Source of the DNA: Obelidium mucronatum
Lineage: Eukaryota; Chytridiomycota; Chytridiomycetes; Chytridiales; Chytriomycetaceae
DNA: 64,000 nt
NCBI GenBank assembly: GCA_025765595.1
Contig: JAIVFH010000134.1
Location: forward strand, 1 to 64,000
Direction of reading: 5' to 3'
Each line of letters starts with the position of its first letter. Position 1 is the first letter of the stretch. This document shows, piece by piece, positions 1,632-64,000 of the stretch. The translations under genes were made by a program, and so were the position numbers. Under the pieces are notes generated by a model. That model ran no database searches, was not told where the DNA came from, and saw nothing but the letters and a program-made list of their open reading frames with translations.

Positions 1632-4145
1632 TTATCGCAGATTAAACTCGTTCGAAACCCACAGCGCCCATTCACACTCCCCATCTTCTTCCAGCACTGC
1701 TGCCACAACTTTCTTGGTCTTGTTCAACGCTCCCGCATTCCCAAACTTCATCATCGACACACACTGCAACAGTCCAAGTTCAGAAGCACCACTACCCGCC
1801 ACATCCAAGCTCTTGAGTTGTTCTAGAGCCGCCGTAGCGTCCTCTCGGTTTTCTTGAATCAAATAAAGCTTGGCCAAACGCGTCAAAACAATCGCTTGGG
1901 AAGAAACGGTACGGCAGTTTGAAAGCGCCTGCATCAATGAGACAAGCGATTGTTGCCACAGATTCGAGTCTGCATAAGCTTCCCCAAGTTCCTGTCCATC
2001 CATACACACATTTTTTAAATATCAAAGCTTGCCAAACAAATGGAAGAAAAAAAAAACCAAAAAACAAACCTCCCACAACGAAACCGAATCCGGTATACAA
2101 GTAATAGCATTCTTGTACGCACCCAACGCAGTCCCTTGCTCCCCCATCGCAAACAACGCCCGCGCCCCAACAGCATACCCCATCGCCATCACCCTCTGAT
2201 CCAAGCATTCCCCATCCGATCGCGCCGCTTCCGTCATTTCCAAAGCATTTTGAAAGATCCCCGTGGCTGCCTCTTTGTTCCCTTGAGCAAACTGTGCAAG
2301 ACCGCGAATGATACTGGAATCGGCGGCGAGCAGATTCGACCAGGATATATCAAGTGCAGTGGATCCCAGTAGATTTGCAGCGTTGGTACACACAGCTTCT
2401 GTTACTCTCGTGGATGTGTCTACTTTATCTTGATCGGATAACTTGTCAACATCTTCTATGGTTCGAGCGTGTAACCCAACCCCCAACGAGAGCCACGTGC
2501 GCGGATCCGATGGATTGCTGTGAACAGCAGAGTGGAAGCATGAGATTGCTGATTTTGTGAACTTCCTTTGTTGTTTCCTAACAACCACCGGAGGTCGCGT
2601 CAACAAGGCATGTCCAAGTGTTTTTTGAATAGACGCAAGTTGAGGGCTCGAAATTGAAGATGGCGATGTACCAGTTTGAGAATGTTGAAGTAATGAAGCT
2701 GATTTCGCCACAGTCACCAGGGATTCTTGAATTTCTGGAGCATACCTTTTTTGAAAAAAAAAAAAAAAAAAAAAACAGGAAAGGATATAAGCCCCCCAAA
2801 AAACAAAACAACAATCAACACACAAAAAGACATTTTTTACCTCGAAATATTTTCAGCTAGCAGCAACCAATTTGTAGCCTTCCAAGGAGCCTGATGAATA
2901 CTTCTCGCCAAAAACCCTCTACTCAATTTACTACCTCCTTGCAACAAGAAATACCGACTCAACAGCATGTTCTTGTCTGCTTCTAGCCCACCAATCATCA
3001 TTGTATCTGGTTTCTCCTTGATCAACTCTGCCGCTGCTTCCTGTGCAAGCTCATCATTCTGGGAAACAATACCCAAGGCCAGTAGAGACATCAACGCTTG
3101 TGGGAAAGAAACACCCCGCTGAAGACTAAACCAAAAAAAAAGGAAATCACATGTTTCTTCTGGTTAGAAATCAGAACTGTCGAATTCGGGGAATGAGATC
3201 CTCTTACCACGCCAACAACTGCTCCTTCGCCAACCCCAAATGAGCATCCGCACCCAAAGCAAACAACACCTGACTCAACAAAAGCCCCACATTATTCTGC
3301 AGTGACACATCCGGTGCTTCCATCCCCGACAGAATATTCAACGCCTCTTGAAACAAGGTCAAACTCTCTTCATACCGTTCCTCGAAAAAGAGAGCCAACC
3401 CAAACCCAACTCTCGTCAACACAGTATCCCCGCCACCACCACTCGCCTCAGTAACCTGCCGCAGCTCATTATAGACTTCAATCGACTCGCCATACATCCC
3501 AGCCGAACACAACGCGCGTGCATAATTCGCCAAACACTGCTCCAACTCCTCGTTTCCACCCCTCCTTCCATTCTTACGACAAATTTCAACAGCCCTCCTA
3601 CACGCTGCCACAGCCTCCCCAAACACACCTTGCTTCTCCCGCAACAACCCCAACAACGTGAACCCAGCCGCATCATTTGCAGAGGCTTCACAGAATTTAA
3701 TCATGCTAAACACGGGGACTGCTAAAACACTTGAATCTTGTTCCAACAATGCCTTGAAGGACAAAGAGGACGTGTGTTTTTGGTATTCAGAGTACGCGTA
3801 GGAATACCCGATTTCCAGGTTTTGACCCTGAGATAGGTCGTTTGCGTGATCAAATAAATCAAGAGCTGCAGCAGCGGTAGGTTCCTTGTTGCCATTGTTG
3901 TTGCTGGGGACGGCGGCGGCGGCAGTGCTTTGGTTAATCAACGCCTGACCATACCAACTGAGGCAAGTTTCAGGATCAATCAGTTGCGCGCGATGGAAAC
4001 ATTGTTTCGCCAAATCAAAGTCTCCGTTAAAGTAATAAAAGTAACCCAAGTTTGTCCATGCCTCGACATTCTAAAAAAAAGAAAAATTTCAAGTTATGAG
4101 ATATATTTACGTTAGTGTTTGCACGGTTGCGTGAATTTGCATGAA

Positions 4146-4188
<43 letters not shown>

Positions 4189-7100
4189 ATCTTTCTTTTG
4201 TTCTTTTTTACCTTCTCATTCAGCTCTACAGCCTTAACAAACGCATGCTGCGCAACCTTCAAATTCACATTAAACACCACACACCCCAACGAATTCCACA
4301 AGTCTTGATTCTCGGGATCCAAATGCAACGCTTTCCATAAACTCGCCAAACTGCATTTCAGGTGTTTCTCTTGTTTAGTCACGTTGTACAGGTAGTGATA
4401 CGCCATGGCAAGGTCGTGCAGGTACGCTGGTTTCATCAGGGTTTGGAAGGTAGCGGCGGCGGTGGGGTTGCTGCTATGGTTGCTGCAAATGTGGATCGCG
4501 ATTTTGTAGGCTGCGATCGCGAGGTCAAGTGCTCGAGTGTAGATTTTCACACTGTCATTCGTTGGTTTCGCTTTTCCTCCGTGACGTCGTCGTCGACTTC
4601 ACACCCTAGAACCCTGAGTCCATTTTCAAGAACCCCCAGATCCACCTACTTCGGCAACATGCCGAGACTTGAATACATAAAACGACATTGCAACGTCTCC
4701 CAAAATCTTGAATATGCTTTGATATTGAGTACTCAAGGTTACAACCGTGATGCAGGCGTCCAAGGCCGCGTTCAACTGATCAATGCAGATTCCAAAAGAA
4801 CCCAAGGAGAAGGACTCGCGCGCCGCGTACAGGTTGCATTCGGCCATGCTTTTTAAACATGGGACTAGGAATCCTGACACGTCTCCTCCTCCTTCTTTGT
4901 TGTTGTTGAGAATGAACTCCTTGACGGATTTGAAGTCAGTGTTGGCGTCATTGAAAAGTCCCAGTTTGAATTTGATTTGTGCGCTTTGGTAGACGGAGAA
5001 AATGCTCGCGGGGATTCAGTTCATGTGCTCTTGTGAAGGCTTTCAATGCAGCCATGTATTTCCTTCCTCGCTGTATGCTTCTCCGAGTCCTTCCCAGGAG
5101 GAAACACTTTGCGTGTCGAGACGCAGAGATGATTGGAAATATGTTATGGAATCAGGGTATTCCTTGTTTTTCTGGGGGAAAAAAAGTTTTGTTCAGTCGA
5201 GCAAAACACAAATAGGAACACAAATAGGCACCTTCAATCACAAGAAATACTTACCAAACTAATAAATCCGAGATACCTCCAAACAACAGCCGACCTAGAA
5301 TTCAAACTCGCAAACTCCAACAACGCAGTTTTCGCAGCTTCAACACCCCCTTCCCCTTCCTCCTCTTCTTCCTGTAAATAAAGCTTCACAAGCTCCACGA
5401 CAGCTTCTTCATCCGTCGCAGTCCACCTCCAACGCTTTTTGAAAACATTTTTTGGCGCGGTCTCGGTTCTGGTCTACACTGAGACAGAATAGGACCGATC
5501 GCTGTGAAGGAGCCAGGGGTGCGTGGGTCTTGTTTAACGGATTTGAGAAAGTAGGTGTATGCAGTGACTCTTGATTCTCCTGTAAATGAATAAAGTTAAA
5601 AGTGAGTACAACCCACAAAACAGGTTTTTTTTTAAAAAAAAAAAAAGAGCAATGTGAAGAAAATACCTCCAATCGCCCACAAGACTTTCCCAACCCTGTA
5701 GTTATGTACCGCGCAATCATTCAATTCCAAAGCACTTTGAAGTAATCTCAAGCAATCCTCTAAATTGTCGCCGCTGCGGTCACTGCCACTATTAGCAGTA
5801 GCATCAAACATTTGAAATTTAATCCATCCGATATCACTGATCGCAGAATCATTGGTCGCATCCAACTCAACGACTTTATAAAGACGTTCAAGCGCTTCCT
5901 GATACTTTTGTACAATAAAGTACGCGTTCGAGAGACCAAGCAGAGCCACAATGTTTTCTGGTTCACGATCAATAATTCTCGTATACAGCGCCACAGCGTC
6001 CTTGATGGAATTTAGCCCCGATTTTGCAGTATGCTTGCGCAAGCGTCATTTCAATTGATTGAGAAACTCTAAAAAAAAGTGCAGCAAAGTATAGTTTAGA
6101 ACCAATATGACATCAATGACACTTTCACACCTGTCCAATACAATCCCATAATCAGATTGAAACTGTGCCACAACAACCAACGCTTTTTTGGAAACTCCAA
6201 TACAAGACTCGTAGTCTTTTGATTCGTGGAGCATCGTGGATAGGATGTGGCTTGTGGATACAGATTGGTTGTTCAACTCGAAACTCTCCTGTTAATTAAA
6301 AAAGTAAGAGAGAGAAAAAATACTACACCGCATTATGACGATAGGTAGTTGAAGCAGAGTATGAATCCCGCCTACGGCGCCATTTTGGCAAGAGGAAGTA
6401 CCCTCACATTCAAATCATCTAAAGCTTCATCAACAGTAAACTCTTCCTCCGTTCGCCACTTGACATAACCAGATGCAGCAAGCCCAGCAGCCTTATACGG
6501 AAACAACCGTGATACAGATTTCATGAGTTGCAAGTCATACTTAGCCGACCCACAATCAGTTGAATTTCAACAAGAATTCAAAAGCGACAATCAAACTGGC
6601 TTCTTCATCATCCCCAGGAACGATAGAGTTTGAATCAGAATTCGCTTGTATCATCCAGAATCCTTTCCGCCAATTTCTTGATATTTGACGCCATCATGCT
6701 TTTTTCTTGTGGGTTTGCAATGTGCTTGATTTTCTTGTTCAAGAATACAAGCAATTTTCCACGAATGGATGATGATGATAAAGAGTCAATGCTGCAGCTG
6801 GTTTCATGGGTTTCTTTTTGGTTTTCAAGAAGGGTCAACAGCTGAGAGTAATACTGATCCAGACGTGATACAAGCACAATTTCAGATTCTACAATCTTTT
6901 TTGTAGTGTTTAGATCGGCTGCACCCAGTCTACGACGACGAAGTTCTACTTGACTGAAGATTGAAGAAAGCAAACAACAAGTCAACTGAACACAGTCATG
7001 CTACATCTTGACTCTTCAAAAAAGAAAAGACGCGCACCGTTCAAACGTCTCTGCATCATGAGTTTCTTGAGCATGAATCAATTTCTGCAACAGATGAATC

Positions 7101-7650
7101 TGAGGAGACTCGACAGAAGCATCCACCGACTTCAAGTGCAATGCGAATTCATCCACGATAGCCTGAGAGTACTCCTTTGCCGCTGGATCCAGCACAAACA
7201 CAGCGACCTCGCCCCACACGGCCAGCAGCTCGCTCCAGTCCTCCTCGGCCTCCAGGATCGCGGCCAGCCGCGCCGTGGCGTGGATGTACTTTTTTGCGTC
7301 CATCTCGTGGCTTGCGAAGACGCGCCGCAGCCCGCGCAGCGCGTCGCTGAGGTCGGGCTTGTCTTGCGGCTTGTCTTCGAGCAGCGCGGCGAGGCCCAGC
7401 CACGGCTGCGCGCTCGCAGGGTTCAACTCGGCCGCGCGCCGCAGGTGAGTCACGGCGGCGCCCGGCTGCGCGGCGTCGGCCGCCGCGCGCGCGAACACAA
7501 GCAGCGCGTTGAACCGCTGCCCGGCGGCGACAGCGGCCGCCGTCCGCGTCGAACACACTGCGGCTGAGCCGCTTGCGCGTCGCCGTGTGCGCCCGCCTTC
7601 GAGGCCGCGAGCGCTGCTTTGAGCGCGGCCTTGGCGGAGGCGTCGTCCAT
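1632..7650 (-). CDS. SKI3: SKI3-like TPR protein (superkiller complex scaffold)
   Basis: Long multi-exon gene read leftward from ATG 7650 to the stop at 1632. Translated exons (7016-7558, 6635-6985, 6046-6276, 5632-6042, 4626-4880, 4107-4550, 3204-4049, 2837-3094, 2022-2825, 1632-2009 approximately) form successive tetratricopeptide helices, for example AAELNPASAQPWLGLAALLE. SKI3/TTC37 proteins scaffold the cytosolic Ski2-Ski3-Ski8 complex that feeds mRNA to the exosome. The N-terminal DASAKAALKAAL followed by a first TPR and the very long TPR superhelix fit that family. The first exon changes frame near 7540-7560: either a very short GC-rich intron (about 38 nt) or an indel. One intron holds a 42-nt G run at 4146-4187. 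The first exon is much more GC-rich than the rest. Another large TPR protein is possible. Confidence 0.72.
4146..4187. repeat. Poly-G/poly-C run of 42 nt in a SKI3 intron
   Basis: An uninterrupted G run on the + strand, so poly-C in the SKI3-sense transcript, immediately upstream of a splice acceptor region. The length is probably unstable and may be mis-sequenced. Confidence 0.9.
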
Positions 7651-53900: not shown

Positions 53901-55226
53901 CTAAATCTCATCGTCAATCTCGTCATCCAACAAACTCATTCCAGACATCATACCAGGTTTTTGCCGTAAACCACGATCCACAATCTGGGATTGAGTATGC
54001 GCTCCGTGAATTGGACTCACACCGTAATAATGATGATGCATTTGTGCAGCGCCAGCTGCGACTCCAAATTGAGGGATCCCCGACGGATTAGCCGCGAAGC
54101 TCCCGTTTCCAATCGCATTAGAATTAGTTGGCAACTGATGAAACTGTGTCTGTGACGAGTGATGCTGAGGAGAATAATGATTCTGTATGTGATGCTGGAG
54201 TTGAGGAGGTAATGTTTTGAGATTCTCAAAAGATGGCGCCGTGAAATACAAGTACATTGTTCCAAAAAAGAGAACAGAGCCAAAGATCTTGATATGGAGC
54301 AACACAATGTTAGGAGATCCAAGAGCAAACCCCAAACATCTCACCATTGTTTTCACGCTTAATGGTTCAAATAATCGATTCAAGACTTCTGCGATCGCCT
54401 CTGCCCCGACTTTAAGGCGCCCAATCTCATGTGGGTCTCGGTTCATACACAATTCCCAGTCAGAGCACATTTGCTGCATTGCAGGAACTCTGTGCTCAGG
54501 GGGAGAGCATTTATTTGCCAGATACATTTTGCTGCAATCATGAACTTGCTGGATGATGTCTGAAAATCGCATGATAATGAGATCGCAATTCAATAGCAAC
54601 GTTGATATAATTAACCTTGGGAATATTCAACTGCTTTCATTTCCAAATCATGTTGTACAGTTTTGATAAACTGGAAGATCAAATAAACAGACAGACACAT
54701 TGTGAAGAGCGTGAAAGCTAGCCGTAAGTATCTATAATTCAAATTGTAAATAGACAGATCCGCCCCGAAGAGTCTCGGCCGTTCATTACCCCATGAGGAT
54801 ATATGGCCACAGCAAATGGTTGGAAACAGTGCTATGGGAAGTTGGGTGTGTTTGACTGTTCCTCGAATCCCCAGCAAATATTCGCCCAACGAATGACAAA
54901 AGTCCGGGTTTTGGCACAATAGTGCCAGGGCTTTCAATAATGTGTTGGGAGTTGATTGCAGCGGTTTGTACGGTCTGCTTCCGTTTCTGCACATTGGACG
55001 AACTCGTCGAGACTTTCTCTACTTTGTCTTTAGAAGCAGGCGTTGATTGGAGTTCTTTTTCTGTTGATGTTTTTGCTGATGTTTTCTTGATGCCAGACTG
55101 CTTTCCGTCCATCTTTGCCAATGCAGGAGATTCAGGCTTAATCGGTACTGTTGGCGCTTGTGCAGTCCAGCCAGCGAAGGAACTGTGGTCGTCAACATCC
55201 ATTGGTGCATAGCGGTTTCTGTCCAT
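53901..55226 (-). CDS. BRL1/BRR6-type nuclear envelope protein
   Basis: ATG 55226 (MDRNRYAPMDVDDHSSF). A disordered Ser/Thr/Lys-rich N-terminal region is followed by membrane helix LAFTLFTMCLSVYLIFQFIK, then the lumenal disulfide domain: DIIQQVHDCSKMYLANKCSP, RVPAMQQMCSDWELCMNRDP and KVGAEAIAEVLNRLFEP. It has four conserved Cys (C-x7-C ... C-x5-C) as in Brl1/Brr6, then the second membrane helix (IKIFGSVLFFGTMYLYF). The C-terminus is His/Gln-rich and ends acidic (DDEIDDEI). The family sits in the nuclear envelope and ER, acting in nuclear pore insertion and lipid homeostasis, and occurs in organisms with closed or semi-closed mitosis. Introns lie near 54600, 54720 and 54990. Confidence 0.87.
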
Positions 55227-55376
55227 CTTTTTATTTTATTTTTTTATGGTTTGACTGTGTACCTATGCTCGGAAGCTAAAGCCCGTTCCTAATTTCTTTA
55301 AAAAAGTAGGAAATCGGATACGTGTTTCTCCCACTGAAAGGTAAATCGGGTGTGCTGCAAATCTCTCCTCGAAATC

Positions 55377-57291
55377 ATGTCTGCTTCAGTATCGGAGGAC
55401 GCCAATCCGTTCAGCGACCGAAGTGCGATTGCTCTACAAACACTCGAAGAGATTGATTTTCCTTCTAATGATCTTGAAGCATCGCGCTCAATGGATGATG
55501 TGTTAGGCGATGGGAAGAGTGTTCTGGCCGTCAGCATTGCTGTTCCGTCCATCATCAATTCTGTAAATATCAATGATCATTGACGCGTTTGTTAAATTTG
55601 TTTATTTCTTGCGGCGCGTTGGGCTAACTTCAGAGAACAGGCTGCAGACTTGCAGCAGAGCCACCAGAATTTTGCGTCACACTATTCTTCAGCCAATGGA
55701 AGCGACTTTTCCATCGCATCAGCACAATCGCATAATATCAGCTCTATTAGAAGCAAAAGAAACCAAGTGTCGATTGCGAGAGCCAATACTGCTGATAGGG
55801 CAGATAAGCAATCGCCGTCACCGCCAACACAAAGGCGAGTTTCACTGTTGCCTGCCTCCGCTGTAAGAATAGATAATTATTGCTATTGGTTTCAATAACC
55901 TGACCAAAAAATTTGCAATTGTAGCTGGGACGAAATTCCCCCACGCAGTCTAACAATGGATCTCAAGCAGTCACGCCACAGCCTCCAAGCCGAATGCTAT
56001 CTCCAACTGTTTCAGGATTTCTTGCGCAATCCGGTCCGAATTCGCGACCCTCAAAATCTCAGCGACATGAGAAGGTCAAACCTCCAGCCTCCTTTGCAGA
56101 ACTTACTGCAGCTCAGTACACAGCACTCCAACGGGCATTTGAAACCAACAATGTCGATCTCCATGAGTTGGTGGCAAGAATCAATCTTCTCAAAGACAAC
56201 TCTGTTTGGGCACATGCAAATTCAAACGACAAACATGTGAAACATTTGAATCCAAGGAGAACAGATATTTCTCTTATACCCATTCAAGGCATGGCTATCG
56301 TCAAGAAGCGAGGAATTCGGCGGCTCATTGGCAAAATTAAACGAATTCTCGATTGCGACTATTCTGATCCGGCAGTTGATCCTGAACATGAAACACGACT
56401 TGAAGACGAACTTAAACCCGATTATTTCCCACCACCTCCACCAGCAACGCTCGTGAACGACGATTCGTTGAGTTTAGCGATTCATTATCATGAAGAGGGA
56501 AACTTGAGACTTTCAGCTTGGTATCTGAAGAAAGCGGCAGTCTTGCAAGCCGATGATACCATGAATCCGTTGGCTTTATATTTACTAGCTCTTACACGAA
56601 GGCATGGATGGGGTCTCGCCCTTGATAAGCACAAGGGTAAATCTCTCCAACATGTATCGATTCTAACAAATAGCTTTGAAACAGCGTTTCTCGAACTAAC
56701 GTTATGCGTGGAGAAACTTATTCTCATGATACCTGGCCTTGTTCAAATTAAACTTCAACATGGCGAGGAAATGGCGGAGTCGGTTTTCTTGGTGCAAGCT
56801 CCATCACGAGACGCATCAGATAGCAACTTGCAAATGAATCACAGAAACAGCTCTCTCTCTTTGTGGAAGCAAAGACGATTAAGTAGAGCTTCAAATGGTG
56901 TTTCTTCGGCGTTTAGTTTGTTCTCAGTCACGTCGTCCCACCAAGAGGTCCTCAGTCTGGACGATGGTTTGTAAGCCACTTTCACTATGTAAAAAAAGTT
57001 TTAACATATTTCTTAGCAATGAATATGCTACCTCTTCCTTTGTTCGAAATCGCAGTCTCGTTGATGCAGGGTTGGGGAGTTCCTAAATCCATACCAGCAG
57101 CAATGTACTTTTACAAAGTGGCAGCAACACTTGGGGATGTGGATGCAATGTTTGATTTGGGGTATCTTAATTTGAAATTAGGGAATAAAATGGAGGCGGC
57201 AGTTTGGCTACGCGATGCTGTCGCTGGGGGAAGGGAATTGACTGGGGAGACTTGGATCTTCAAAAGGAAATGGGGCGGCGACGGACGATGA
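55377..57291 (+). CDS. Sel1-repeat protein (DSF2/SKT5-like)
   Basis: ATG 55377 (MSASVSEDANPFSDRSA). A long Ser/Asn/Gln-rich N-terminal part crosses introns near 55561-55633 and 55863-55923. A conserved block AELTAAQYTALQRAFETNN and GMAIVKKRGIRRLIGKIKRI precedes Sel1-like helical pairs: SLSLAIHYHEEGNLRLSAWY, PLALYLLALTRRHGWG, then after an intron NMLPLPLFEIAVSLMQGWG, AAMYFYKVAATLGDVDAMFD and KMEAAVWLRDAVAGG. The C-terminal TGETWIFKRKW resembles the end of fungal Dsf2-like Sel1 proteins, which relate to chitin-synthase activators. A phase problem near 56630-56760 suggests one further intron. Confidence 0.78.
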
Positions 57292-57385: not shown

Positions 57386-60300
57386 ATGTTTCTTGAAGTG
57401 GATTGTCAACTTTGCAGAACGTCGCTGTTCCTCGAAGACAACAGTCCTCTTGAATCCGAAGAAGAAGACGCTCAAGGAGTTTGGATTGATTGTGGCCATG
57501 TTATCTGTAATTCGTGTGTAGCCCTACAAATCTCATTGGATAAGGAGAAGCTATGCCCCTGCGCAGAATCCCACTCTTTGAATGAAAGCCCCTCAAAATC
57601 AACGGCTGAAGTGATTGATCTCACTCTGGAGGACGCTTACTTCACATGTTGCAATAATTTGTGTCGTAAGGTGCTGACAATCGGACGAACACTTGAACTG
57701 GAAGCAAACTATCCAATGATCGTTTGTATTTATTGCGAAACCAAACTTTGCTGCCAATGCCGTTCGATGTGGCACCTGAACGGAGTTTCCTGCTTGGACC
57801 TAAAAGGAAAAGGAAAGGGAAAGGAGGCCAGGATTGTGCTACCAGAAGCTGACTTTGACAATGCGAATCCCAAAAAACTCCAAGAACGCCACATATCAAT
57901 TAGGAAGGAAGCTACCGAGAATCCTTTCAAAAGACGCGCCATTGACTTGGGTAGTGAAGTAACAGACGTCGATTCCCTTACGGCTTCCTCCCTGAGACAT
58001 GATGTACCCCCAACTGATTCGAATGAGCTTCCTGAGTTTGTCCAGCTTAAGCTTATGGACGCACTGGATTTGGTACACGCCAACGAACGAAAATCGAAAG
58101 AAATGTTGGACATCGTTGAATCATTGAAGTCATTGGGCTATTATTCTTTTCTAGAAGCGATGATGGGCGACTCGGAAGATTCGGAGGTGGGAGCAATGTT
58201 TGTTTTTCCATTTGATTGTTTTCTCATAATTATGCTCATTCAAAGAGTCCGTGTTCATCCAGTGCAAATACACATACATGTAAAGCATCTATTTCTAAAC
58301 CCTTGCCAAAATCGATACGAAAGGTACCGCTTGCTTCAAATGAGTCTTCTGGTAGTAACGCTTTTTCCAGCCATCTTTGAATTCCTCACAATCACACCAT
58401 AGCAGAATACTCAACAGAACCTCAATGCTCAAACATCATGGATCGGCATTCTCTTCAAGCCCATCAAAGTCATCTTTGTCTCCGATATATTTCAGTCGCG
58501 GTTCTCCCTTTTACCTCATACTCTTCCAACCAAGCAAAAACCCACCTTGGGAAAAAGACTTTTTCAAACTCACCCCCACAATGCTCCTCCCTTATACCCT
58601 TCCAAAAAAAGTGTCAATAATTCGTGTCAACTACAAGGGTACTCATCGGAAAGATGATTTGGAAAAGTATCGTGAGTTTTGTGAAGCTGGGTTCAATGAT
58701 ACACACGAATTTTTCACATGCACGAGAGCTATGCTTGAAAAGCGGGACTGCTTAATGATTGAGCGGGGAAAGCGAGACGAAGTAATGCGGTACCTATCCC
58801 TGGACTCTGTAATGGATGTATCACGAGTTGTAAAGTACAGCGGGCTGATGATGAATGAATTGGAAAGCGGCGTCGAAGAGATAACGAATGTATTTGTCAG
58901 AATACAGAGTGATATTACAAGGATGGGATATAATTTCACCGATGGTTGTGGACGGATCAGCCGCGATTTGGTCGTGCAGTTGCTACCGAATGCGAATCCT
59001 GTTCCATCTGTTCTTCAGATCCGGGCCCCTGGATTGAAAGGCGTTTTAGTTGTGGATCCGACACTGGAAGATCGCACTATTGTATTTCGGAAGTCAATGC
59101 AAAAACTCAACATTCTAAAAATTCAAGGAGAAGGAAGAGTTGAAAAGTTGCCGATTGCTGTTTTAAATTATTCCAAGCCACTCCTCTGCAGGGGTTTAAA
59201 TATGCAAGTTATTTACATTTTGTTGGAAAGGGGTGTGAATGCCAAAGTAGGTGTGATCAATTGTAAACAGCCAACGCTAAATCGAATTTCAACAGATGAT
59301 ATCAGAAAAAGATCGCCAATACAAAAATGCGGTGAATCACGCTTTGGTGGATATTCAAGCCGCCTTTGATTTCCTCTACATTTGCGGCCATGACCGCGAA
59401 TTCGAGGAATTACAGAACATTCTGTCCAAAACATATTCTCGCAAAGAAGCTTTGAAATCTTTCTGGAATCGATTAAAGACGTTGCAAGCAAGCCAAATCG
59501 GAAAGTGGCGGAGAGGAAAACAAACCAACCCTCCCCATTCCGTTCGTGACGATCCAGACGAACGACTCGAAGACATTGATCCTGAACGGAGAGTGGTTCT
59601 TCCAATCCGAAAGTCAAATCTGCTATATGGAGTCTGTGATCACCGTGGTATTCTAGAACCTGGGCAATGTTATGCCCATGTTTTGTTGCCAAATGGAAAA
59701 TCCGAAGTCTTGAAAGGACGAGTCGCCATAATGCGGAACCCTTGCTACCATCCTGGAGATGTTCTGCTTCTTGAAGCTGTTGATTTGGACGTATTCCATT
59801 CAATACATAATGCGATTGTGTTTTCTGTCAAAGGAGAACGACCTGCAGCAGACGTATGTAGTGGCGGTGACCTGGATGGAGACCGTTTTCTTGTCATATG
59901 GGACTCCGACATTTTGCGAAATATGAAACCAGTGGCAACTTTCGATTATAGACCCCATGTTGTAGCAGATTGTATCAGTCAGACAGTTGCGAAATTGGGT
60001 ATCCTCACTGCGAAGCAATCCTTGAAAAGGCGAAGGGCAAATGAAGAAGACGCAGACGTGATTTTTGGCACTTCCAAAAAGGATTTAATTGACTATCTTA
60101 TATCCCACGGCTCAAAAGACACAATTGTCGGTCGAATTGATGCTCTCCTTTTGAATTTCCAAAAGTTTGAGTTTCAAACAAACGCAAAGTCGATTTTAAC
60201 GCGAGATGAACTTGTTTGCCTGTTGACGGCCTTATTTGCGGCCAGCGTCGATTCTATGGGAATTGATGTGGATGCCATGGTCCATGCAGTATTGAAGGAG

Positions 60301-63300
60301 ATCAACAACAGCAGAACTCCCAATTTATCGGAGTTTAAGATGCTGCACGAGGAATGCATTAGAAATACAGAAGCTACAGCTACATTCGTGAAAGTGTACG
60401 AAAAGCAAGCAAGTTTGTTGTTTTCTTTGTTCATGGATAGTGTGAGAGAGGGCCATGAAATGTGGAAGTCTCCAGTGGAAAAGCTTATACCAAGCGAGTT
60501 TAACAACCACTACGGTTTAACTGCCCGTCTGATGAACGCTCGACGGCTTGTTCACCCTCAAGCAGCAAAAGGCGTTATGGCATCCTTGTTGGACAATGAC
60601 TTTGATCTGTTACGGGGGTGTTTGGATGAAAATACGTTTATGACATGCTGCCAAGCTGTAAGTGGACTGGAAGCTAGGATTGATTCGAGCTTAAATGCTT
60701 GTCAGGTATGCTTTCATAACTATTTTGTAAACTTACTGGCCTAAAGTACTAAGGCAGTCGGAAGAATTGACTGCGATACAGTTTTCGGAAGATGTTATTT
60801 TGTTTGAGAAATGCTACAAGAATAGGCTAGAGTTTGAAAATCTCTTCAATCTACACGCATGTTTTGGTGGGATTATCCGCAAGATATGTAGTTTGGTTAA
60901 ACGGCACAATAACCAAAACAGCATGTCTCAAAACGTCACTACAAATGTGGGCAGGATTCTGAAGTGTGAACTCGATATGATGAATAGGTGTGTGTGTGTG
61001 TGTGTGTGTGTCAACTTGCTAAGGTGTGACTCATTAAAACCGTTTCACTACATAGTGGACTTCCAATCTACCCTTCGAGAATTGCTTTGATGGATTGCTT
61101 CCACGAAAATCGCGTTATGCTAGTAGTTTCCGAAACAGGTGGCCCTTTTCATATTTAGGAAGACTCGCATTAACTTTTCCAAAGGGAGCGGAAAATCAAC
61201 GTGTACCCCAAACTTCGTGGCGAACGAACTTCTCATCAATGACCCAAACCTGGCGGCAAAACCTATTATTGTTGCTCAACCTCGCCGGGAAGCCACGACT
61301 ACGTTAGCGCGGCGCTTGGCAAATTCGCGGAAAACAAAGTATGGCGAAGAAGTTGGGCACCACATTGGCCGCTCCAGTGCCCAAGGACGAACACCAATCA
61401 TTCGCTGCGTTACATATGGTATTCTGCTCCTTTATGCGCAGAAAGATCCGGACTTGGCGGACTTCTCTGTCATAATTCTGGACGAAGTTCATGAATCATC
61501 CAGTGACCTTCACTTTTTGTTTTCGATTCTGGAAAGGGCGCTCACAGTAAACTCAACTTTGAAAATCATTCTCATGTCTGCTTCAGTTAATATCAGAAGC
61601 ATTACAAAGTTTTTTGAAGGGTGTCAAGTGATAACCGTTGATGGCCGTAGCTATCCCGTTGAAGAGGAGTACAGCGGCATCCTTTCGCTCCAACCGGATC
61701 AATACGTTGCGAAGGCTATAGCCAAATGCAAAGAAATCCATGAAAATGAGCCAATTGGCGATAATCCGGACGTTTTGGTCTTTTTACCAACAAAACGGGA
61801 TATTGATGAAGCCGTGTTTCGATTGAGGATCAAGAATCCCGTTCCAAACCTTCACGCGTTTCCGTTCCATTCAAAGATGGGCCGAGAAAAGAAATCTTTC
61901 ATCTTGAATCGACATCCTTTGGAGGATTGGGTGAGACTGAGTAGGAAAGATCGAGATGTAGGTTGATTCTTGTTTTCGAAGAAAAGTGCTGATTTATTTT
62001 TTTGAAATAACTCAGTATCAACAAAGCAGTTTTTTAATCGATGTGGATGAGGATGCTGAAGTTATTGAAGTGATTGATTGGGAAGTTAAAGTCGAAACTC
62101 CACCGACGAACGGTGAAACCTCACGGCGCGTAATTTTTTGCACCAACATCGCCGAAACATCTCTCACAATTCCTTCAATTGGATATGTGATTGATTCCGG
62201 GCTTCAGTATACTGTTGATGTTTCTCCCATCATGAAAGTTCGGCATGGAAAGCTACAACCAGCTGTAAGTGAATATTATTATTGGCTCGTGAACTCATTT
62301 TATTTTAGACAAAGACTTCTGCTATTCAAAGGAAGGGGCGAGCAGGCCGCTTAGGTCCCGGCAAGTGCTTCCGTTTGTATTCTCTCGAAGATGCAGAAGA
62401 ATTTCCAACCGAATATCCTGCTGCTCCAAAGAGCTTTGAAATACATCTGCTTCAAATAATTGACGTGTTTCAAGACCTGCTCACCTATAATTGGTTCAAG
62501 AAACCGTTGGATGCTGAGGTTGGTTGGGCATGGAAGATGCTCGTTGAGTCTGAGTTTGCAGCCGAAGATGATGTGGAGTGCAAGCAAAGTTATATTGCCG
62601 GACGGCAGAATTGCAATGGAGTTCCTTCGTCATGATGTTTCGAGCGAGATGGTTTTGTTTTTACTTCGTGTCTGGAGGTCACCCGACGCTGGAGATGACA
62701 TTCGAGACCAATTGCGCAACCATTGCAGCTTTCCTTTCTTTTGGTACTGCAGATATTTTATCGATGGATTTCGATATAATGATTTTGTGAAGGCGGGATA
62801 CCCAGAGGAATTTAAAACCTTCAACAGCAACGACCCATTGCCATCGAGTTTTTGTAAAGCGAATCTATTTATTGTTTGGTCAAAACTTGGAAAAGAGGAG
62901 CGCGAAGTTTTTTGCGATAAGATGAAGCTGGCGTCGTTTGGAATGGAATCCATCAACGAAATTCGGCAATTCATAGTAAACTACTTGGATGGCAGGAATG
63001 TTGGCAAGGAAGAAAGAGGGGACAAACAAAAACGGGCCGTAAAAATGAACGCCCAAGAGCGACAAAATTTTATATTGGGAAAGCTTGGGGAGGGATGCTT
63101 TATGAATTTGGGCTTTGTTACTGACCGTGGGCATTCGATTGCGTTTGTTTTCAACGACGAATACTGCATCGCCAAATTGGACCAGACTGAAGCAAGCATG
63201 TTTGGATCAAAGAGCGATTGTGGATTGGTTCTGTTCCATTCAATTAGGCGGCAAGCGAGCTCTTGGGATCAATTTATTGTTGGGCACATTGACCCATTGC

Positions 63301-63371
63301 CTGGATGGCCAACCGTTATACCTAATTCGTTTTTAGCAAAGTATTTGGACTATGATCTCTTTCAAGCTTGA
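57386..63371 (+). CDS. Fused RING/IBR-like zinc domain - RNA-dependent RNA polymerase - DEAH-box helicase, 1839 aa
   Basis: Ten exons join in frame: 57386-58186, 58246-58323, 58371-59246, 59296-60705, 60758-60987, 61056-61138, 61185-61957, 62016-62264, 62309-62518 and 62562-63371 (5520 nt). All introns are GT-AG; most are 43-75 nt. Residues 1-150: zinc module with CQLC, CGHVICNSC and CPC, then an IBR-like CIYCETKLCCQCRSMWH. About 350-1055: cellular RdRP with FTDGCGRIS (about 482), QIRAPGLKGVL and the catalytic GGDLDGDRF (about 777; metal-binding Asp triad). About 1130-1839: DEAH helicase with LPIYPSR, SETGSGKST (motif I), QPRREA (Ia), DEVH (II, about 1258), SAS (III), NIAETSLTIPS (V) and QRKGRAGR (VI). 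It probably makes dsRNA from aberrant transcripts and remodels RNA in RNA silencing. Function and single-protein status are inference; whether the zinc part is a ubiquitin ligase is open. Confidence 0.85.
60988..61010 (+). repeat. (GT)n microsatellite starting at an intron donor
   Basis: The intron that joins the RdRP and helicase halves begins directly with about 11 GT units, so its 5' splice site sits at the edge of an unstable dinucleotide repeat. Slippage would usually leave a GT donor intact. Confidence 0.85.
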
Positions 63372-63457: not shown

Positions 63458-64000
63458 CTATCTTTCACCGAGAAAGTAAACAACTAAATTCTTGCCCTGG
63501 AAGTTGAGAAACCGCGTTTGGACTTGACCAGGTGATTTCTTCTCTTTAATCCATTCCACCAAATCCATTGTTGTGGCCACCGGATTTCCATTCTTGAGGT
63601 ATCGATCACTAAAGTCGTCTCGAAAGACGCAACACGGTATAACTGCAAACGGTAAGTTGCATGCAATAGCTGTTTCGACAATTGCGCCAGTCGCCTGATC
63701 TGGATGCAATCCAACCAGAAGTGAGGCTGCTCTTATTTCATCTGTTACAGACTCTGGAGTAAAATACTGCTGCTTGTATTTAAATGGAAGATCCGCCAGA
63801 AGAGCGGTGTCTAGTTGTCCTGCTTCAAGTTCATGCTGAATCTCAACTTTGCAAGAATCCTCATGTTCCTCAAACGCATCCTCCTCATCAGCACCATCCG
63901 TATTGTCCATATCGTTCTCCTCAGTTTCATTGGTGATACTTTCACCTTCCTTGAAACCTTGATGCTTTCGGCGTTGCTTTTTAATCCATTTCTTCAAACC
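63458..64000 (-). CDS. Methyltransferase-like protein, C-terminal part (gene runs off the window)
   Basis: Open from the window edge to the stop at 63458. An acidic, Asp/Glu-rich stretch (DMDNTDGADEEDAFEEHEDS) precedes FKYKQQYFTPESVTDEIRAA, then SLLVGLHPDQATGAIVETAI and LPFAVIPCCVFRDDF, ending with a beta strand FLNFQGKNLVVYFLGE. LVGLHPDQAT-E/G-AI and PFAV(I/V)PCCVF are typical of a eukaryotic SAM-dependent methyltransferase family (Methyltransf_32-like) whose substrate I do not know. The SAM-binding N-terminal part lies outside. It is convergent with the RdRP-helicase gene: 86 bp between stops. That the first Met shown (63997) is internal is likely. Confidence 0.65.
   Translation of the reverse strand, partial: GLKKWIKKQRRKHQGFKEGESITNETEENDMDNTDGADEEDAFEEHEDSCKVEIQHELEAGQLDTALLADLPFKYKQQYFTPESVTDEIRAASLLVGLHPDQATGAIVETAIACNLPFAVIPCCVFRDDFSDRYLKNGNPVATTMDLVEWIKEKKSPGQVQTRFLNFQGKNLVVYFLGER

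Follow-up and report, generated by a model that had tools for sequence, protein, structure and literature searches.

A predicted chytrid protein with a cellular RNA-dependent RNA polymerase ahead of a DEAH-type helicase

Cellular RNA-dependent RNA polymerases (RdRPs) with an N-terminal Dicer-type helicase are described from Dictyostelium, Phytophthora (the oomycete RDR), Hydra and Nematostella, and RDRs without this helicase from Saprolegnia, in the available sections of PMC4791657. Aphanomyces RDRPs appear in a study of silencing in oomycetes, the available text of which does not name a fused helicase (PMC10080066), and for Fgrdrp5 (FGSG_09076) of Fusarium graminearum the accessible part of a deletion study reports a role in the production of exonic small interfering RNAs (ex-siRNAs) (PMC11237814). 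A search of the open-access literature, partly available as excerpts and with most subscription papers outside its reach, returned no description of an RdRP with a C-terminal DEAH helicase. This is the arrangement predicted for the gene analyzed here, which occupies 57386-63371 on the plus strand of a 64,000-nucleotide (nt) window, i.e. the whole stretch of DNA that was analyzed, from the chytrid Obelidium mucronatum. The window belongs to contig C134 of a 694-contig, 48.3 Mb assembly. From 5' to 3', the gene starts with a RING/IBR-like segment and a Ser-rich linker, continues with the cellular RdRP and ends with the DEAH-type helicase, a bridge lying between the two enzymes.

The motifs of both enzymes lie in one spliced frame on the plus strand, with the RdRP before the helicase. 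PF05183 was matched above its cut-off of 23.8 bits in two exons (79.6 and 128 bits), the RdRP region aligned to the RDR2 structure 7eu0 (E 3.8e-25), and the signatures FTDGCGRIS and GGDLDGD are both intact. By PF05183 and these motifs the locus is assigned to the cellular (QDE-1/RDR-type) RdRPs, RNA synthesis being a predicted activity. The RdRP head domain PF26253, which canonical members often have, was not among the precomputed Pfam annotations of the family proteins. In the helicase, PF00270 was matched above its cut-off (E 1.1e-8) and motifs I, II, III, V and VI (SETGSGKST, DEVH, SAS, NIAETSLT and QRKGRAGR) are all intact, which places it in the DEAH/RHA class of superfamily 2 (SF2), with predicted ATP-driven unwinding. 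An earlier note on this DNA had proposed an RdRP and a DEAH helicase in one frame and in this order, and both the Pfam matches and the presence of every motif that it named bear this out. For the C-terminal exon of the helicase, structure prediction gave a fold similar to that of the winged helix (WH)-ratchet-oligonucleotide-binding (OB) part of Prp2/Prp43.

Searching the genome with helicase exon 7 returned contig C12 at 100% identity and contig C76 at 47%, with the other 11 matches at 30-36%. The C12 copy of the gene (C12:217469-223538) encodes an uninterrupted protein of 1856 aa and has 8 introns. The C76 gene (106191-111325, minus strand) is a diverged paralog of 1613 aa in six exons, again with an RdRP and then a DEAH helicase. 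Three intron positions are common to C76 and the window gene, including the one at the RdRP-helicase junction, and the phases of these introns, counted from exon lengths, agree (0, 2, 0). A single C76 exon spans the catalytic GGDLDGD and the bridge up to the 68-nt junction intron, and the helicase starts after that intron.

The same architecture is found in other species. A database search with the RdRP region gave 109 proteins, and in a search with the helicase region, in which scoring was limited to the 7989 candidates with the most words in common, we considered the best 120 of 4106 passing matches (P0002 and P0013 were not among these 120). PF05183 was present in all of the 18 best of these 120 and in none of the remaining 102, and the E-value steps from 1.8e-60 to 1.5e-52 where the PF05183 proteins end. 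An RdRP followed by a helicase occurs in predicted proteins of Siphonaria, Physocladia, Entophlyctis, Rhizoclosmatium, Chytriomyces, Blyttiomyces, Phlyctochytrium and Irineochytrium (for four of the eight names, placement in Chytridiomycota was checked). The same order is present in two JGI proteins and in two water moulds, Aphanomyces euteiches and A. astaci. Motifs were counted in 21 rows, i.e. 19 database proteins, C12 and C76: GSGKS and DEVH were present in 21/21, DxDGD in 19/21, and the RdRP was ahead of the helicase in 21/21. The arrangement is beyond chance, as it recurs in the diverged C76 paralog and in other species and as both enzymes and the RING-IBR part are constrained between the C134 and C12 copies (see below). 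Several of the orthologues are named at NCBI only as helicases (dhx15, prp43 or dhr2).

We placed both enzymes in trees, each made by a quick method without bootstrap. The RdRP tree had 112 rows; P0012 (span too long), P0010 and P0072 (short) were dropped by the script, P0110, P0115, P0106, P0109 and P0088 were removed by hand, and architecture labels were assigned manually from Pfam annotation and motif positions. In this tree the 19 fusion rows group together as a single clade (SH-aLRT 99), which is adjoined by three further RdRP-DEAH proteins from ENA, P0061, P0071 and P0086 (93). The clade and these three proteins share one half of the tree (95) with 30 proteins that join an RdRP to a superfamily 1 (SF1) helicase and 8 in which no helicase was seen. 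The other half holds 9 proteins whose N-terminal helicase is of the Dicer type and 43 that have no helicase. In all, a C-terminal helicase (SF1 or DEAH) is present in 52 of the 60 rows of the one half, and the nine N-terminal Dicer-type helicases are in the other; this distribution suggests that C-terminal helicases mark one half of the eukaryotic RdRPs and Dicer-type N-terminal helicases the other half. C76 groups with Chytriomyces P0007 and P0112 (100). The closest partner of the window gene is Siphonaria P0001 (96), and the clade around these two includes Chytriomyces P0005 (100); Chytriomyces hyalinus thus has both gene types (P0005 and P0007). As the two genes pair with different Chytriomyces proteins, the two gene types are older than the split from Chytriomyces. 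Aphanomyces P0011 and P0117 form a clade with the JGI protein P0009 inside the otherwise chytrid family, a patchy distribution that could possibly reflect transfer between lineages.

The helicase tree (69 rows, hand-picked among 219 proteins plus 2 models and excluding P0116) likewise has the 21 fusion rows in one clade (100), separate from RBR-DEAH, HrpA and PRP22 proteins. The fusion rows and the RBR-bearing RdRP-DEAH type lie on one side of a branch (96) for which the program warns of long branches. P0061, P0071 and P0086 are possibly a triple RdRP-DEAH-RBR fusion: P0086 has an OB hit and a C-terminal IBR hit (E 5.9e-4), both below the cut-off, P0071 has an RBR-like Cys-rich C-terminal end by eye, and P0061 has none. 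Derivation of this type from RBR-DEAH helicases was disfavoured (approximately unbiased test, p 0.020), a weak result because of the long branches.

Taking these results together, we consider that the gene probably encodes one fused RdRP-DEAH/RHA protein in which the motor likely strips or feeds the template during synthesis of the second strand by the polymerase, for use in RNA silencing. On the DNA of the C12 copy and of the C76 paralog the two enzymes share one spliced frame, and both have intact catalytic motifs. On RNA, DEAH/RHA helicases travel 3' to 5', and an RdRP reads its template 3' to 5'. The helicase would be expected to bind RNA that is single-stranded or structured and to travel in the same direction as the polymerase, so that a single chain could remove structure or proteins in front of the site of synthesis, or hold the template for processivity. 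The double-stranded RNA (dsRNA) would then pass to the Dicer-like (RNase III) and Argonaute proteins of the genome, in which both RNase III and Piwi-domain genes are present. The fusion likely helps to convert single-stranded into double-stranded RNA, and the self-contained dsRNA-producing machine that the earlier note envisaged is a plausible description of the predicted protein. The nearest experimental support for a silencing function is indirect, by analogy with the ex-siRNA role reported for Fgrdrp5 in the accessible part of PMC11237814.

Several points weigh against this reading. The fusion is seen at the level of DNA, the single mRNA being a prediction, and activity, direction of movement and the role in RNA interference (RNAi) are all predicted. 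The proteins of other species are all automatic gene models, among which P0002 (with UMPH-1) and P0115 (with a second DEAH helicase) are merged with neighbouring genes, and the two rows without DxDGD, P0110 and P0115, are likely incomplete models. The N-terminal zinc part is poorly conserved (a database search with residues 1-345 gave 0 of 3607 candidates at E up to 1), its RING-IBR part is absent before the RdRP in C76, and AlphaFold2 run on exon 1 alone without an alignment did not obtain a fold (pLDDT 41), only the helices at residues 217-259 being confident. The bridge, the linker and the helical segment of exon 1 are under weaker constraint than the enzymes, with ratios of nonsynonymous to synonymous change (pN/pS) of 0.52-0.59 between the C134 and C12 copies. 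Finally, the model of the window copy ends at 62635 (1608 aa) because of a 1-base insertion at ~62586 relative to C12.

One rival reading accepts the fusion, with the helicase acting alone as a sensor or remodeller of aberrant RNA that recruits the RdRP, rather than as a template motor. Separate DEAH proteins are tied to silencing, e.g. a Chlamydomonas DEAH-box helicase in transposon silencing (known from a reference title in PMC7763443) and Prp43 with Rde1 and Ago1 in Cryptococcus (available part of PMC7763443). The bridge of ~250 residues is also less constrained than the enzymes (pN/pS 0.52, against 0.05 for the helicase and 0.25 for the RdRP), which would allow the two to move independently. 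However, the strong constraint on the helicase fits a sensor as well as a motor, and the present data do not separate them; we regard the sensor as the less likely of the two.

It could also be argued that the window copy is a pseudogene or an allele in decay, since it differs from C12 by three single-base indels in a cluster of ~170 bp in the last exon, the frame-breaking insertion and two more at ~62710 and ~62757. The two copies are collinear, with 98% identity over 6.6 kb and 97% over the following 3 kb, and C12 is likely the other haplotype because several other loci of the genome are also paired. The C12 sequence was used as is, and the window copy was left unedited. The remaining exon length differences are multiples of three, and over the part before the insertion no module had a pN/pS as high as 1: the values are 0.05 for the helicase (17 synonymous, 3 nonsynonymous changes), 0.14 in the RING-IBR part (residues 1-140; 4 and 2), 0.25 in the RdRP (15 and 13), 0.52 in the bridge (4 and 8), 0.56 in the helical segment of exon 1 (2 and 4) and 0.59 in the linker (3 and 6). 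In seven introns (the GT-repeat intron was excluded) 13 of 355 sites differ (3.7%), compared with 2.4-5.4% of synonymous sites. These module ratios and an intron rate like the synonymous rate fit coding exons and spliced introns. With length differences in multiples of three, pN/pS below 1 and a local assembly error accounting for the indel cluster equally well, decay of the window copy is unlikely. We also observed that divergence between the copies jumps along the contig, from 0.14% in the 2.2 kb upstream (54437-56640) to 1.9-2.2% in the gene and 3.3% after it, and that a GT microsatellite, which starts right at the donor site of intron 5, makes this intron 68 nt long in the window and 144 nt in C12 (L009 6581-6724).

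The earlier note had further described the N-terminal module as RBR-like and possibly coupled to ubiquitin signalling. A further rival is accordingly a ubiquitin-coupled RdRP whose RING-IBR part would be an active ligase marking RNAi or viral proteins. By eye, exon 1 has eight candidate RING ligands (C7-x2-C10, C36-x-H38-x2-C41-x2-C44 and C57-P-C59) and all eight IBR zinc ligands (C88-x4-C93, C114-x2-C117, C122-x2-C125 and H130-x5-C136); the RING-IBR part also has a low pN/pS, from just the six changes given above, and a RING occurs in Physocladia P0002 and RBR-DEAH proteins in animals. However, the last RING pair is C-x-C, both Pfam matches are below their cut-offs (zf-RING_5, E 5.9e-4, 20.2 bits against 27.9; IBR, E 8.8e-4, 19.7 bits against 24.3), and a RING2 with its catalytic Cys is missing, there being no Cys from residue 137 to the end of exon 1. 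Membership of the RBR ubiquitin ligases was therefore rejected, and since the zinc part is also little conserved (it is missing in C76, and the database search found no relative at E up to 1), the ubiquitin idea is weak and such a ligase appears improbable. A comparison of exon 1 with the PDB by sequence gave weak RING matches only (best E 0.07), and within the genome its sequence was found only at C134 and C12, in copies that are 98% identical. We compared the N-terminal pieces of 14 family proteins with C12 residues 1-360, and two of them matched at E < 0.01. In Rhizoclosmatium P0004 the start of the protein matches the helical segment of exon 1 (41% identity, E 1.9e-9), and the P0004 model joins this segment to the RdRP; in Physocladia P0002 a RING lies ahead of the RdRP (E 0.004). 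The N-terminal alignment score of Entophlyctis P0003 was reached by 3 of 500 shuffles. The P0004 and P0002 matches therefore make it likely that exon 1 belongs to the gene and that the zinc part is optional. Rather than an RBR ubiquitin ligase, the RING-IBR part is probably an adaptor that the protein can do without.

That gene prediction merged an RdRP gene with a DEAH helicase gene next to it is highly improbable: the fusion is read from DNA, and automatic annotation did merge neighbours in P0002 and P0115, but GGDLDGD and the bridge are in one and the same exon of C76, which ends at the short intron with the helicase right after it, the same order recurs in eight chytrid genera and two Aphanomyces species, and an RdRP in all of the 18 best of the 120 helicase matches is not expected of chance neighbours.

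The gene model (Table 1) runs from an ATG at 57386 to a stop at 63371, with 9 predicted exons and 8 GT-AG introns of 44-68 nt in place of the ten exons and nine introns of the earlier note, the last of whose introns is false and the first of which is likely two around a 78-nt exon. A single first intron of ~184 nt is possible, although two short introns match the other intron sizes better; as skipping exon 2 also keeps the frame, the fusion is independent of this exon. An intron near 62550-62590, as in the nine-intron model, is ruled out, as C12 lacks the extra base, reads through and aligns with C76. The length given in the earlier note, 1839 aa, stands against 1856 aa in the C12 copy.

Table 1. 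Predicted features of the RdRP-helicase gene (window coordinates)
Feature	Position	Strand	Remarks
Exon 1	57386..58186	+	Open frame; RING-like residues 7-63, IBR-like 88-136, helical ~217-259
Intron 1, predicted, 59 nt	58187..58245	+	GT-AG; keeps frame in C134 and C12 copies
Exon 2, 78 nt, 26 codons, Ser-rich linker	58246..58323	+	Skippable without frame change; in-frame 3-nt insertion in C12
Intron 2, predicted, 47 nt	58324..58370	+	
Exon 3, Ser-rich linker, then RdRP first half	58371..59246	+	PF05183 E 2.8e-22; genome search match 58821-59249
RdRP motif FTDGCGRIS	58935..58961	+	Sequence
Intron 3, 49 nt	59247..59295	+	Position common to C76 paralog
Exon 4, RdRP second half and bridge start	59296..60705	+	PF05183 E 6e-37
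RdRP catalytic motif GGDLDGD	59863..59883	+	Sequence
Intron 4, 52 nt	60706..60757	+	TACTAAG close to 3' end
Exon 5, RdRP-to-helicase bridge	60758..60987	+	
Intron 5, 68 nt, GT repeat, RdRP-helicase junction	60988..61055	+	Position common to C76 paralog
Exon 6, helicase start (SGLPIY...SETG)	61056..61138	+	
Intron 6, 46 nt, interrupts helicase motif I	61139..61184	+	
Exon 7, RecA1 and RecA2 start	61185..61957	+	PF00270 E 1.1e-8
Helicase motif II DEVH	61481..61492	+	Sequence
Intron 7, 58 nt	61958..62015	+	
Exon 8, RecA2 with motif V NIAETSLT	62016..62264	+	PF00271 E 6.2e-4, below cut-off in this piece
Intron 8, 44 nt	62265..62308	+	Position common to C76 paralog
Exon 9	62309..63371	+	Motif VI QRKGRAGR (62327-62350) and C-terminal WH-ratchet-OB; open in C12, frame broken ~62586 in window copy

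Immediately upstream of the gene, at 56917-57288, is a Sel1-repeat fragment (E 2.1e-5, below the cut-off), and downstream a minus-strand frame at 63458-64000 had no Pfam match. A promoter and terminator scan gave counts close to those of shuffled sequence; the pattern used was bacterial and is uninformative for this genome. Elsewhere in the genome, the sole canonical RdRP locus that we found (L011, C490:1-9900, 1707-7622) is interrupted by a copia-type long terminal repeat (LTR) retrotransposon, which has a 1692-aa open frame with RVT_2 and integrase matches and 375-bp LTRs that are 99.5% identical; the RdRP profile resumes beyond it. The helicase-fused RdRPs may be the only intact RdRPs in this assembly.

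With some doubt, we put forward the possibility that eukaryotes have a third class of silencing polymerase, so far undescribed, in which RNA replicase and a DEAH motor of the same direction form a single chain. These proteins would come from an old RdRP lineage with a C-terminal helicase slot that holds an SF2 DEAH helicase (chytrids and Aphanomyces), an SF2 DEAH helicase with an RBR, or an SF1 UPF1-type helicase (other fungi and animals). If this is true, polymerase and motor evolve as one exchangeable unit. A natural polymerase-motor fusion would also make the handling of structured or protein-bound templates by cellular RdRPs testable with one protein and two active-site mutants. In addition, annotation is corrected, as several orthologues bearing only helicase names also carry an RdRP.

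Aphanomyces belongs to the same water-mould group as Saprolegnia. The Aphanomyces proteins found here have a C-terminal DEAH helicase, whereas the available sections of PMC4791657 describe Saprolegnia RDRs without a Dicer-type helicase. The N-terminal Dicer-type helicase-RdRPs, like the fusion described here, unite a cellular RdRP with a helicase of SF2 in a single chain. However, their helicase is N-terminal and Dicer-like, whereas that of the fusion is C-terminal and of the DEAH/RHA class with WH-ratchet-OB, and the nine such proteins fall in the opposite half of the RdRP tree; the contrast in order and helicase class that the earlier note drew with the Dictyostelium type therefore stands. 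Among helicases without an RdRP, PRP43/DHX15, PRP2, PRP22/DHX8 and bacterial HrpA share the helicase core and C-terminal fold with the fusion; in the best 120 of 4106 helicase matches, the rows that lack an RdRP have 26-37% identity. The RBR-DEAH proteins (DEAH11/12 type), which occur in animals among the same 120, also combine a DEAH helicase with a zinc module of the RBR kind, but they lack an RdRP and form a separate helicase clade, and their complete RBR is C-terminal to the helicase, where the fusion ends after the OB part. In plant DEAH11/12, too, the complete RBR is at the other end of the protein. P0061, P0071 and P0086 have an RdRP and then a DEAH helicase, as in the fusion, but their motif II is DEAH rather than DEVH and their bridge is long. 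Fgrdrp5, which is P0048 in this analysis, is an RdRP with a C-terminal SF1 (UPF1/NAM7-like) helicase. Proteins of this type share with the fusion the order of RdRP first and helicase last and the same half of the RdRP tree (95), and differ from it in the helicase itself, which is SF1 (PF13086/PF13087, by Pfam annotation) in the Fgrdrp5 type and SF2 DEAH in the fusion.

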